64,000 nt of DNA from Runella rosea. Lineage in GTDB: Bacteria > Bacteroidota > Bacteroidia > Cytophagales > Spirosomataceae. Positions within the stretch are counted from its first letter, which is position 1, and each line of letters opens with the position of its first letter. The notes under the pieces were generated by a model, which was not told the DNA's origin, did not search any database, and saw only the letters and a list, made by a program, of their open reading frames with translations. This document shows, one piece after another, positions 5,404 to 9,524 of this stretch. A program made the translations under genes and the position numbers. The stretch is taken from the NCBI RefSeq assembly GCF_003325355.1, contig NZ_CP030850.1, positions 1,674,001-1,738,000 of the forward strand. Direction: 5' to 3'.

Positions 5404-8031
5404 CTACGCTTTCAGACGAATCAGCGATTCCTGAATCGCGACAATTTTAGCTTCGGCATCGGCGAGTTTTTGGCGTTCTTTTTCGACCACATCCGCTTTG
5501 GCGTTTTGGACGAAACGTTCGTTTGATAGCTTTGCTTCTACCGATTTTTTAAAGCCCAACGTGTATTCCAATTCCTTTTGCAGGTTTTCGATTTCTGCGG
5601 CTACGTCAAGTTCCCCCGCGAGATTCACAAAAAACTCATCGGCTTTCACCAAAAACGACATCCCATCAGCTTGGTCGGTGGTGTAATTGATTTCGGAAAT
5701 ATTGGCCAGTTTCACCAATAACCCTTCAAAAGGCTGGTAAAGGCCTTTATTTTCGGTCTTTATCGTCAAAGGCAATGCCGTTTTAGGGCTTATATTCTTG
5801 GTACTCCGTAGGTTGCGGATGTTGGTCACAATCTCAAAGAAAATCTCACCGTTAGCCAAAAGCGTGGTATCAATTGCTTTGGCCTTAGGATACTCGGCCA
5901 CGCAAAGACTTTCCTTCTCTCCTCTCGGACGAATATCCTGCCAAATTTCTTCGGTGATAAACGGCATGAAAGGATGCGTCAGCGCCATGATGCGTTCAAA
6001 GAAATCAATGGTCGCTTCAAACGTTTCTTTATCAATGGGTTGGCCGTATTCTGGTTTAATCATTTCCAGATACTGCGAGCAGAAATCATCCCAAATCAAT
6101 TTATACACTCCGTTGAGGGCATCCGAAATGCGGTATTTTGAGAACAAATCAAGGACTTCCGTAATTGTTTGGTTGAGTTTTGACTCAAACCAATTGACCG
6201 CCAATTGTGCACTAAAAACTGGAGACTGTGGGCTGTACACTTCCCATCCTTTAACCAGACGAAATGCGTTCCAAATCTTATTGCAGAAGTTGCGGCCCTG
6301 CTCGCAAAGTTTTTCGTCAAACAACAAATCATTTCCAGCGGGCGAGCTAAACAACATTCCCGTACGTACGCCATCGGCGCCGTATTGTTCAATCAAGGCC
6401 AACGGCTCAGGAGAATTCCCCAACGATTTCGACATTTTACGCCCTTTGGGGTCACGCACAATTCCCGTCAGGTAGACGTTCCGGAAAGGCAATTCACCTC
6501 GGAACTCATAACCTGCGATAATCATCCGCATAACCCAGAAAAACAGAATTTCGGGCGCCGTAACGAGGTCATTGGTAGGGTAATAATAGTTGATGTCCTC
6601 GTTGTTGGGGTCCTTGATACCGTCAAAAACCGAAATAGGCCACAGCCACGAGCTAAACCACGTATCCACCACGTCGGGGTCTTGGGTCAAGTCGGCTTCG
6701 GTCAGAGCAAACAACTGCATTTCGTGCTGGGCTTTGCGAAGAGCCTCACGCTTGTTTTTGGCCACAATCACGGTACCATCCGACAAATAATAGGCAGGAA
6801 TTTGTTGTCCCCACCACAACTGCCGGCTGATGTTCCAGTCGCGAATATTTTCAATCCAGATTCGATACGTATTTTTAAACTTAGGCGGATGAAGCTGAAT
6901 ATTGTCATTCATCACGTTTTCGAGCGCGGGTTGACACAGCTCCTTCATCCGCACAAACCACTGCAACGACAAGCGCGGCTCAATGACGGCGTTTGTTCGC
7001 TCAGAGTGACCGACGTTGCTTTTGTAGTCTTCTATTTTCTCCAAATTTCCCGATTCTTCGAGCAGTTTGATTATTTTTTTTCGGGCCACAAAACGGTCTT
7101 CGCCCACCAAAATCAGCGCTTTCTCGTTGAGTTTTCCTTCTTCGGTCAAAATGTCGATGATTTCGAGTTTGTGTTTTACACCCAAATCGTAGTCGTTTTG
7201 GTCGTGCGCAGGCGTCACCTTCAAGGCTCCCGTTCCAAAATCCATCGTTACGTATTCATCCGTAATAATCGGAATCTCACGGTTGATGAGCGGAATAAGC
7301 GCTTTTTTACCGTGCAAATGCTTAAAACGCTCATCCTCGGGGTGAACACAAATGGCAGAGTCGGCCATGATGGTTTCAGGGCGAACCGTGGCAATGATAA
7401 TTGCCTCGTTCTCTCCCACGATAGGATACCGCAAGTAGCACAGCTTCGTCATTACCTCTTTGGTGATGACTTCCTCGTCGGATACGGTGGTTTTGGCCTG
7501 TGGATCCCAATTGACCATGCGGTGCCCCCGATAAATGTAGCCTTTGTTGTAAAGGTCAATAAAAGTGTCAATGACGGCATCATAAAGTGAAGGCTCCATC
7601 GTAAACCGTGTGCGGTCCCAATCACAAGAGGCGCCCAGTTTACGCAATTGCTTCAAGATAATGCCGCCGTATTTATCGGTCCATTCCCAGGCATATTTAT
7701 AAAACTCTTCGCGGGTCAGGTCGCTTTTCTGAATGCCCTGTTCTTTAAGCATCGCCACCACTTTGGCTTCGGTCGCAATCGAAGCGTGGTCTGTGCCCGG
7801 CACCCAACATGCTTCTTTGCCTTCCATGCGTGCCTTGCGGACGAGTACATCCTGAATGGTATTGTTGAGCATGTGGCCCATGTGCAGCACCCCCGTCACA
7901 TTGGGCGGTGGAATGACGATGGTATAAGGCTCTTTATCAGGATTCGGCTTGGAATTGAAATAGCGGTTTTCAATCCAATAACTGTACCATTTGTCTTCAA
8001 TTTCACGCGGATTGTAGGTCTTCGAAATCAT
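5404..8031 (-). CDS. valS: Valyl-tRNA synthetase
   Basis: Class I aminoacyl-tRNA synthetase of 875 residues that charges tRNA-Val. Visible features in order: the HIGH-type motif HMGH (50-53) after PPPNVTGVL; the editing (CP1) domain including FGTGALKVTPAHDQNDYD (about 265-282); the KMSKS loop at 532-536; the anticodon-binding helices; and a C-terminal coiled coil starting near ELDVAAEIENLQKELE, which is diagnostic of ValRS. The length is normal. The ATG at 8031 precedes the conserved KTYNPREIEDKWY. Upstream, on the same strand, lies a valine-rich leader ORF with a terminator/antiterminator pair, so its expression is probably controlled by attenuation as well as by a nearer promoter-like box. 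Confidence 0.97.
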   Translation of the reverse strand: MISKTYNPREIEDKWYSYWIENRYFNSKPNPDKEPYTIVIPPPNVTGVLHMGHMLNNTIQDVLVRKARMEGKEACWVPGTDHASIATEAKVVAMLKEQGIQKSDLTREEFYKYAWEWTDKYGGIILKQLRKLGASCDWDRTRFTMEPSLYDAVIDTFIDLYNKGYIYRGHRMVNWDPQAKTTVSDEEVITKEVMTKLCYLRYPIVGENEAIIIATVRPETIMADSAICVHPEDERFKHLHGKKALIPLINREIPIITDEYVTMDFGTGALKVTPAHDQNDYDLGVKHKLEIIDILTEEGKLNEKALILVGEDRFVARKKIIKLLEESGNLEKIEDYKSNVGHSERTNAVIEPRLSLQWFVRMKELCQPALENVMNDNIQLHPPKFKNTYRIWIENIRDWNISRQLWWGQQIPAYYLSDGTVIVAKNKREALRKAQHEMQLFALTEADLTQDPDVVDTWFSSWLWPISVFDGIKDPNNEDINYYYPTNDLVTAPEILFFWVMRMIIAGYEFRGELPFRNVYLTGIVRDPKGRKMSKSLGNSPEPLALIEQYGADGVRTGMLFSSPAGNDLLFDEKLCEQGRNFCNKIWNAFRLVKGWEVYSPQSPVFSAQLAVNWFESKLNQTITEVLDLFSKYRISDALNGVYKLIWDDFCSQYLEMIKPEYGQPIDKETFEATIDFFERIMALTHPFMPFITEEIWQDIRPRGEKESLCVAEYPKAKAIDTTLLANGEIFFEIVTNIRNLRSTKNISPKTALPLTIKTENKGLYQPFEGLLVKLANISEINYTTDQADGMSFLVKADEFFVNLAGELDVAAEIENLQKELEYTLGFKKSVEAKLSNERFVQNAKADVVEKERQKLADAEAKIVAIQESLIRLKA

Positions 8032-8117: not shown

Positions 8118-8215
8118 GGGAATTCTCCGTGAACCCGGTCACACAAGGGCCTGAGATGCGGAGGAATACAAGTTCATCGTGTTTGAGTCATTTTGTCGTT
8201 TGAATCAATAAAAAA

Positions 8216-8237
8216 GCCCGACTCAGGCGAGTCGGGC
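8216..8237 (-). terminator. Intrinsic terminator of the valS leader and nuoH
   Basis: Read on the minus strand, a 9-bp GC-rich stem (arms 8237-8229 and 8224-8216, GCCCGACTC and its complement) with a 4-nt loop is followed immediately by six U residues. It terminates transcription coming from nuoH or from the leader promoter, 185 bp before valS. Its 5' arm can instead pair with an upstream segment at 8289-8280. Confidence 0.85.
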
Positions 8238-8289
8238 GGTATATTTTTAGGGGTTAATAGCTACCTAAAATACGACGCTCCCGACTCGC
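8227..8289 (-). promoter_or_regulatory. Antiterminator pairing of the valS attenuator
   Basis: The minus-strand segment 8289-8280 (GCGAGTCGGG) is perfectly complementary over 10 nt to 8236-8227, which is the 5' arm plus two loop bases of the terminator. The two pairings exclude each other. The upstream segment lies inside the last third of the Val-rich leader ORF. The connecting loop can form its own small stem (TTTAGG with CCTAAA), which would compact the antiterminator. Stalling at Val codons upstream of 8289 would leave the segment free and allow readthrough. Reaching the stop codon at 8265 would cover it and permit termination. The mechanism is inferred from the pairing and codon content. 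Confidence 0.65.
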
Positions 8290-8354
8290 ACACAGCCCAC
8301 CACACGAACACTCGTGACTTTGACGGACGGTATGTTACTCAGCGAGAGGTACAT
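8265..8354 (-). CDS. Valine-rich leader peptide (valS attenuator)
   Basis: A 29-codon ORF starts with ATG at 8354 and ends with TAG. Nine of its codons encode valine (GTC, GTT, GTG and GTA all occur), all within residues 11-28, including two Val-Val pairs. The first ten residues hold none. Such enrichment is what leader peptides of attenuated amino-acid operons show for the amino acid being sensed. The stop codon lies 27 nt before the terminator stem, and the coding sequence includes the antiterminator segment. It sits between nuoH and valS on their strand. No homology to a functional protein is expected. The peptide is proposed to act only through its translation. Confidence 0.72.
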   Translation of the reverse strand: MYLSLSNIPSVKVTSVRVVGCVRVGSVVF

Positions 8355-8438: not shown

Positions 8439-9524
8439 TTAGACCGTCAACAAGCGCCAAATCCCGCAGAAAAGAAACAAAATCAACGCCACTGGGGTGA
8501 GCACTTTCCAGCAGAGAAACATGAGTTGATCTACGCGCAAACGCGGGAACGTCCAACGAACCCACATCTGAATGAGAATGGCAAAACCCGCTTTAAAAAT
8601 CAGCCAAAAAGCTCCCGTCACGTTGCCCCAAATGGTACCCGGGGCACCGCTCGTCCAGTCGGCAAGGCGAAGCGGGCCAATATTGGGCAACGGTGTATTC
8701 CAACTTCCTAAAAACAGAATGGCCCCCAACAACGACACCAACAGCATCATGGCGTATTCTGACAAAAACAGCAGCGCCCAGCGCATTCCAGAATATTCCG
8801 TGTGGAATCCTCCCACGAGTTCCGACTCTCCTTCGGGGATGTCGAAAGGAGCGCGGTTACATTCAGCTAATGTTGTGATAAAGAACACAATGTAGGCGAT
8901 AATCAAAAAGGGACTTCTGACGATATTCCAACTTAAAAAACCACCGACCCGCGTAATATCAACGCCCATTGATTTTAACCCAAACAGATATGTAATTTCG
9001 TCAGAATAAATCCCTTGTTGATAACTTATGGTCTGCAAATCAAGCGTCTGGGCCGTCATCACAACGCACAATATGACCAACCCCAGCGGGATTTCGTACG
9101 AGATAATTTGGGCCACGGAACGAACTGCCCCAAAAAGCGCAAATTTATTGTTGGAACCCCAGCCCGCCATCAAAATCCCGATTACATCCACGGAGATAAT
9201 CGTCATCAAATAAAATATCCCGACTGACGTAGTAGAGCCCTGTAAATCAGGACTTAACGGAAGCACGGCATAACCTGCAAAGATAGCCGTAAAAATTACT
9301 AACGGGGCCAACAGAAACAACTTTCGGTCGGCAGTGGCGGGAACGATGTCTTCTTTTTGGAGAAGTTTGAGCAAATCAGCGATGAGTTGTAGCAAGCCCC
9401 ATTTCCCTACTTCCATCGGGCCCATGCGGTCCTGAATAAAAGCGGAGACTTTACGTTCCAAATATACCCCCACCACTACGGAGGAAAGGGCCATTATCAA
9501 GAAGATGGGCAGCGTTACGGGCAT
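8439..9524 (-). CDS. nuoH: NADH-quinone oxidoreductase subunit H
   Basis: Membrane subunit H of respiratory complex I, 361 residues with about eight transmembrane helices. Diagnostic segments are YLERKVSAFIQDRMGP near the start, the quinone-chamber segment with LLQLIADLLKLLQKED, and RAPFDIPEGESELVGG in the middle, with its conserved acidic cluster. It forms part of the quinone-binding chamber and the link to the proton channels. It is unusual that no other nuo gene adjoins it: menB lies upstream and valS downstream, and it has its own promoter. All key motifs look intact, so it is probably functional with the remaining subunits encoded elsewhere. Confidence 0.95.
   Translation of the reverse strand: MPVTLPIFLIMALSSVVVGVYLERKVSAFIQDRMGPMEVGKWGLLQLIADLLKLLQKEDIVPATADRKLFLLAPLVIFTAIFAGYAVLPLSPDLQGSTTSVGIFYLMTIISVDVIGILMAGWGSNNKFALFGAVRSVAQIISYEIPLGLVILCVVMTAQTLDLQTISYQQGIYSDEITYLFGLKSMGVDITRVGGFLSWNIVRSPFLIIAYIVFFITTLAECNRAPFDIPEGESELVGGFHTEYSGMRWALLFLSEYAMMLLVSLLGAILFLGSWNTPLPNIGPLRLADWTSGAPGTIWGNVTGAFWLIFKAGFAILIQMWVRWTFPRLRVDQLMFLCWKVLTPVALILFLFCGIWRLLTV

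Follow-up and report, generated by a model that had tools for sequence, protein, structure and literature searches.

Between nuoH and valS, the window (the whole stretch of 64,000 nucleotides of Runella rosea DNA analysed here) carries on its minus strand what is probably a leader-ORF transcription attenuator. Its ancestral target in Runella would be rtcB, switched on when translation of the leader fails, and the clade of the window would have lost rtcB and kept the attenuator beside valS. This reading draws directly on the anatomy of the element, its alternative predicted folds, its conservation, its association with rtcB, the absence of rtcB from the clade and the constraint that still acts on the element there.

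All features described here are read on the minus strand. The gene upstream, outside the device, is nuoH (8439..9524; its name is that of the preliminary description). It is followed by the promoter-like -7 box TATTTTTG (8381-8374), which we take to be a putative promoter by the Bacteroidota consensus TAnnTTTG. The leader ORF (8354-8265) consists of 29 codons, MYLSLSNIPSVKVTSVRVVGCVRVGSVVF, and ends in a TAG stop at 8267-8265. Nine of its residues, all between positions 11 and 28, are valines (p about 5e-5 for at least nine in 28 codons, assuming 6.5% Val). Within leader codons 22-25 lies the antiterminator 5' arm GCGAGTCGGG (8289-8280), the exact complement of a segment (8227..8236) that is shared between the antiterminator, as its 3' arm, and the terminator, as its 5' arm. 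The antiterminator also has a predicted inner hairpin (GTATTTTAGG ... CCTAAAAATATAC, 8239..8273), within which the leader stop codon lies. The intrinsic terminator (8237-8216) has 9 bp and a 4-nt loop and is followed by six T (8215-8210). Past the terminator, a spacer (8118..8209) leads to a promoter-like box of valS, TATCTTTG (8117-8110), and to valS itself (5404..8031), the next gene downstream, which encodes a valyl-tRNA synthetase (NF004349 and TIGR00422 above cut-off). The ORF with its nine valines, the perfect complementarity of 8289-8280 to 8236-8227 and the 9-bp terminator with six U (8237-8210) had all been reported in the preliminary description and are confirmed. It was mistaken in placing the terminator inside the 3' region of nuoH, as the terminator lies ~200 nt beyond the end of that gene (8439) and the element has a promoter-like box of its own after nuoH.

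The predicted fold of 8306-8211, which includes the whole terminator, favours the antiterminator form (-35.3 kcal/mol, z -2.4), and so does that of 8354-8221, a segment in which the terminator is cut short (-45.4 kcal/mol, z -3.0). When the 64 kb were scanned on both strands for a terminator with a complementary upstream segment and a short ORF ending there, 2 of 26 terminator-like hairpins passed, this site with a 10-nt match and the other with a 7-nt match. Among dinucleotide-shuffled stretches of 700 nt, which were derived from phylum rtcB upstream regions and not from the window, 1 of 350 passed the same scan. A search for known leaders and T-boxes gave no Rfam match at the gathering cut-off in the window or in 11 related loci.

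The element (box, ORF of 29-31 codons, antiterminator and terminator) is present in 10 of the 13 Runella genomes searched. The preliminary description had proposed valine-sensing control of valS, but the gene order in relatives rules out valS as a conserved target: the element adjoins valS only in the window's own genome (G000, 7.16 Mb) and in its sisters G001, G006 and G010, whereas in the six others rtcB lies downstream, alone or at the end of a cluster. In three of these six (G004, G011 and G012) the element directly follows nuoH, and valS is found 3.4 to 6.8 kb farther on. In G004 the element is followed by a PcfJ-like gene and then rtcB, and in G012 a DRB0094-type RNA ligase gene is placed between these two; G011 has the PcfJ-like gene and then rtcB, with DNA resembling the G012 ligase gene just before rtcB. 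In the other three (G002, G003 and G005) the end of the terminator stem is 89-90 nt from the rtcB ATG. Protein and profile searches agree on an intact rtcB (RNA ligase RtcB) in 6 of the 13 genomes, and in all six the element is ahead of it, with one or two intervening genes in three of them. The same searches found no rtcB in G000, G001, G006, G008, G009 or G010. G007 retains a 29-residue remnant of rtcB, and the element beside it is reduced to its terminator, having lost the promoter-like box, the leader ORF and the arm. No element was found in G008 and G009 by searches of the 13 genomes with a model of the element (R1) and with the G003 element. Thus, among the 13, the whole element occurs without an intact rtcB only in the four sisters, where it faces valS. 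These four group together in an unrooted valS tree, in which G007 and G009 are placed elsewhere and from which G008, having given no close valS match, is missing.

Some further features of these loci may be mentioned. The DRB0094-type ligase gene of G012 (L063:4845-5906), between the PcfJ-like gene and rtcB, brings two RNA ligases into one apparent operon. G011 has a second, shorter RtcB-family gene (C21:40044-40853, 70.5 bits to PF01139). A short ORF follows the terminator in G004 (MNTLFIHIP, L062:2976-3107) and in G012 (MNNLFIHIP, L063 from 3154), and a similar but diverged ORF start, MNLYSSAS..., remains at position 8177 of the window.

The location of the element directly 3' of nuoH in seven genomes could also be explained by a terminator of the nuo transcript next to a chance ORF, and G009 does have a different terminator-like hairpin after nuoH (by eye). 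Yet, the element is away from nuoH in G002, G003 and G005 (the G003 copy follows a photolyase-related gene), and a plain terminator leaves both the antiterminator and the constraint on the ORF unexplained. This explanation seems very improbable.

The ten leader ORFs contain gaps of 3 nt only, and a TAnnTTTG box is found 18-28 nt before each ATG. Their peptides, such as MYFTLCNIPADQRTTIRVAGDRRVECVVF in G004, MLFTSYDILSTTATARTRGCRGHIGVDCDVF in G012 and MLRYSQNIAIGQFADVCVCDAMRVGKYVF in G003, have in common Asn or Asp at residue 7, an ATA codon (Ile) at position 8 and a C-terminal Val-Phe. The valine run is not conserved with the element: each of the four sisters has nine Val, whereas there are four in G003 and G004, two in G011 and G012, and five in G002 and G005. 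Conservation in relatives, offered in the preliminary description as a check on its proposal, thus extends to three sister genomes and no further for the Val codons, and to all ten genomes for the alternative pairing. The arm overlaps the ORF everywhere, and the mutually exclusive antiterminator and terminator that had been described in the window are predicted in 10 of 10 elements. Ribosome-mediated attenuation, also proposed there, is well supported by this anatomy and by the retention of ORF, antiterminator and terminator in 10 of 13 genomes. Six core antiterminator pairs are kept in all ten elements (one of them once as G-U), and the adjoining pair varies, being C-G in some elements, G-C in G011 and G012, with changes on both sides, and unpaired in four. 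Of the outer antiterminator cells 83% are paired, compared with 29-49% on sliding. The arms vary so little that shuffles reach the observed covariation values, 220 of 500 for the paired cells and 322 of 500 for the covariation score. The inner hairpin is predicted in all ten elements, although a different sequence builds it in G002, G003 and G005.

The element was also looked for outside these loci. Over 222 family genomes, R1 gave 7 strong matches (E 1.3e-17 or better), all in Runella, and weaker matches in 36 other genomes. R1 is not fully sensitive, as it missed the G002 element at E 0.01, and for this reason the G003 element served as an additional query. Among the weaker matches that were inspected, those in G003 and G005 are real elements, and by eye the single matches read in G000, G025, G204 and G133, as well as two from G011, are ordinary terminators. 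A second copy in the window's own genome can be rejected, since the sole other R1 match there (C1:4901478-4901583) resembles, by eye, coding DNA and a terminator. An exact pattern run over the genome contigs returned at least 7 records, all from Runella, in a list that is not exhaustive: G004 and G005 fit the pattern and their DNA was not recognised in it.

From these features we infer how transcription, leader translation and readthrough may be coupled. A promoter at ~8380 would give rise to a short transcript. A ribosome finishing the leader would sit over the stop codon and cover the antiterminator 5' arm, so that the terminator would form and the transcript would end near 8210. If translation were halted early or never begun, the arm would be free to pair with the terminator 5' arm, leading to readthrough; as estimated from the size of a ribosome footprint, a stall within about the first 16 codons, or the absence of a ribosome, would free it. 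RtcB would in that case be made upon failed leader translation, as might follow from damage to tRNAs or a block of the ribosomes. That no amino acid dominates the leaders of the rtcB-bearing species fits a sensor that responds to translation failure in general, tRNA damage included. In the clade of the window, the rtcB cluster would have been lost, leaving an attenuator beside valS that is still maintained.

The sequences of the four rtcB-less genomes are informative about this last step. The junction region is gap-free among them, which fits a single loss of rtcB, and the PcfJ-rtcB cluster was probably lost from the region 8118..8209, since its first ~60 nt resemble the G004 post-terminator DNA by eye. 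The element itself is constrained. Taking fourfold sites of nuoH and of the first 620 nt of valS in the four genomes as a reference (101 of 256 variable) together with the spacer (44 of 144), the ORF has 8 variable sites in 90 (p 1e-8 and 8e-5, respectively), the stretch from arm to terminator 2 in 52 (p 4e-8 and 4e-5) and the terminator 2 in 28 (p 3e-4 and 0.01). The changes in the leader are not clearly protein-like, with four variable codons changing the amino acid and three silent. The constraint on ORF, arm and terminator rules out that the element is a relic, and with variable sites so far below fourfold and spacer levels the device is very probably still in use. Its survival in a clade devoid of rtcB implies that rtcB cannot be its only role. 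The clade thus provides a natural experiment on the fate of a sensor after gene loss: it decayed together with rtcB in G007 and was kept here.

One possibility is that the attenuator took over valS after the loss of rtcB and accumulated Val codons, so that a shortage of Val-tRNA would raise readthrough into valS, in addition to transcription from its own promoter. The absence of rtcB from the four genomes and the constraint on the ORF and arm region agree with this, as does the persistence, among the 13 genomes, of whole rtcB-less elements only where they face valS. The nine valines of these leaders exceed the two to five of the other six; residues 11, 19 and 22 are Val solely in this clade among 29-codon leaders, and no Val codon has changed its amino acid within it. 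Nevertheless, 9 of 28 residues against 4-5 of 28 is a small excess, two of the Val codons fall within the conserved RNA arms, the clade represents a single lineage and hence one event, and G010 is 83% complete. Moreover, a conserved promoter-like box of valS lies downstream of the terminator. The 17 nt around it are identical throughout the clade, and the box itself is also present in four genomes in which no element adjoins valS; of 12 Runella valS loci, 8 have CCCTATCTTTGCACACATTTTT ahead of the gene, four of these with unrelated DNA further upstream. Since this box is still conserved, any effect of the element on valS would be additive. We regard the takeover of valS as quite possible, if not the outcome that we would expect. 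In that case, the preliminary description may be right for the clade of the window, by way of the re-use of an rtcB switch. The full sequence of events, in which the deletion of rtcB left an RNA-repair gene's sensor of translation failure isolated beside valS, and the gain of Val codons re-tuned it to sense valine-tRNA on behalf of valS, is proposed tentatively.

The preferred reading, an attenuator of ancestral rtcB, gains a parallel from a second group of the same family. In G175-G180, which are all six g32 genomes listed with rtcB, this gene is preceded by an attenuator unrelated in sequence to that of Runella. It has the same layout, with an ORF of 34 codons such as MQNFAPAYRQEMSLRQNPASDFGRKDRDGSGRMR, an arm GGTTCCGGGC and a terminator, and both the leader sequence and its peptide differ from those of Runella. 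Start, stop and frame of the short ORF are conserved in the six elements as in the ten of Runella, the arm likewise overlaps the ORF, and antiterminator and terminator are again mutually exclusive in the predicted folds. The end of the stem is 29-31 nt from the rtcB ATG in five genomes and 97 nt in G175. The most divergent g32 leader, that of G175 (L225), has a post-stop hairpin changed on both sides, GGATGACTTAGG/CCTAAGTATCC versus GGGATGACTTAA/TTAAGTACCC (by eye).

The element could alternatively be an independent small RNA or micropeptide gene, whose ~160-nt transcript or peptide would act in trans and whose place before rtcB or valS would be incidental. The promoter-like box and terminator of the element and its maintenance without rtcB are compatible with such a gene. 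Yet, the leader peptides are strongly divergent between lineages save for a few residues, the element precedes rtcB in 6 of 6 rtcB-bearing Runella, an attenuator unrelated in sequence precedes rtcB in g32, and the alternative pairing is most readily understood as acting in cis. A gene acting in trans is therefore improbable, and control of rtcB in cis remains the favoured interpretation.

The attenuator is, to judge from the genomes compared, not a general feature of rtcB. RtcB is found in 108 of 222 family genomes and in 94 of 395 phylum genomes, and the 90 family and 70 phylum regions that were scanned are part of the listed rtcB places, fragments and weaker places being excluded. In the family, 6 of 84 non-Runella regions passed, all from g32, and the scan found no convincing attenuator in the remaining 78; in the phylum sample 4 of 70 passed and none is convincing. 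L251, L269 and L271 were rejected for their A/T-rich arms and L285 because it lies 1,189 nt upstream; L238 of the phylum set and L196 of the family set are one locus. Of seven control elements the scanner missed that of G011, whose pairing requires a G-U pair, and it also missed three rtcB regions of Runella whose element is farther upstream than the stretch supplied. In many other genera, rtcB comes after a gene that is, by eye, of the slipin type, and the scan found no attenuator in these genera. Matches to the Y RNA-like YrlA family of Rfam, with scores below gathering, occur just upstream of rtcB in g3 (L219:102-208 (-), E 3.7e-8) and g12 (L223:837-931 (+), E 5.3e-7), and L227-L229 have similar stretches by eye; ARAGORN detected no tRNA in the Y RNA-like stretches upstream of rtcB.

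To our knowledge, little is known of how RtcB is switched in bacteria that have no RtcR activator. Where RtcR/CARF control exists, the rtcBA operon is regulated by damaged tRNAs, according to PMC7790460, through an activator protein instead of leader translation. For the Bacteroidota, the portions consulted of two reports describe strong clues of attenuation upstream of amino-acid biosynthesis operons in Flavobacterium psychrophilum and leader-like short ORFs in B. thetaiotaomicron (PMC9723704, PMC7366714), as well as structured 5' UTRs of aminoacyl-tRNA synthetases that are not named (PMC9723704); these portions name neither rtcB nor valS. Literature searches on leader-peptide attenuation of rtcB returned a MexXY/armZ review among the matches and no case from the Bacteroidota, and none on an rtcB leader or terminator in Bacteroidetes was found. 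For leader-peptide attenuation of valS the matches were a paper on S. aureus and a book of conference abstracts, and for that of aminoacyl-tRNA synthetases in Bacteroidetes they included a paper whose main text does not contain 'valS'.

The classical amino-acid attenuators, such as those of trp, his, ilv and pheST, share with the Runella element a leader ORF, an antiterminator, a terminator and mutually exclusive folds. They differ from it in that the leaders of the rtcB-bearing species have no dominant amino acid and the target is RNA repair and not biosynthesis; a separate protector helix, moreover, is not established for the Runella element. Closer in its target is PA5471.1, a leader of 13 codons in Pseudomonas aeruginosa, short in comparison with the 29-34 codons of the Runella and g32 leaders. 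PA5471.1 controls the RtcB-like armZ and is induced by ribosome stalling and when the CCA-adding enzyme is mutated, as stated in the available sections of PMC12057347 and PMC13041342; its full translation leads to the terminator, in an attenuation that the same sections of PMC12057347 term proposed and awaiting confirmation. The likeness consists in a leader-peptide attenuator placed before an RtcB-like gene, whereas the phylum is another and ArmZ is an anti-repressor of MexZ. Two rtcB attenuators of unrelated sequence within one family, taken together with PA5471.1-armZ, suggest that the readout of failed translation is a repeated solution for the control of RtcB-type genes.
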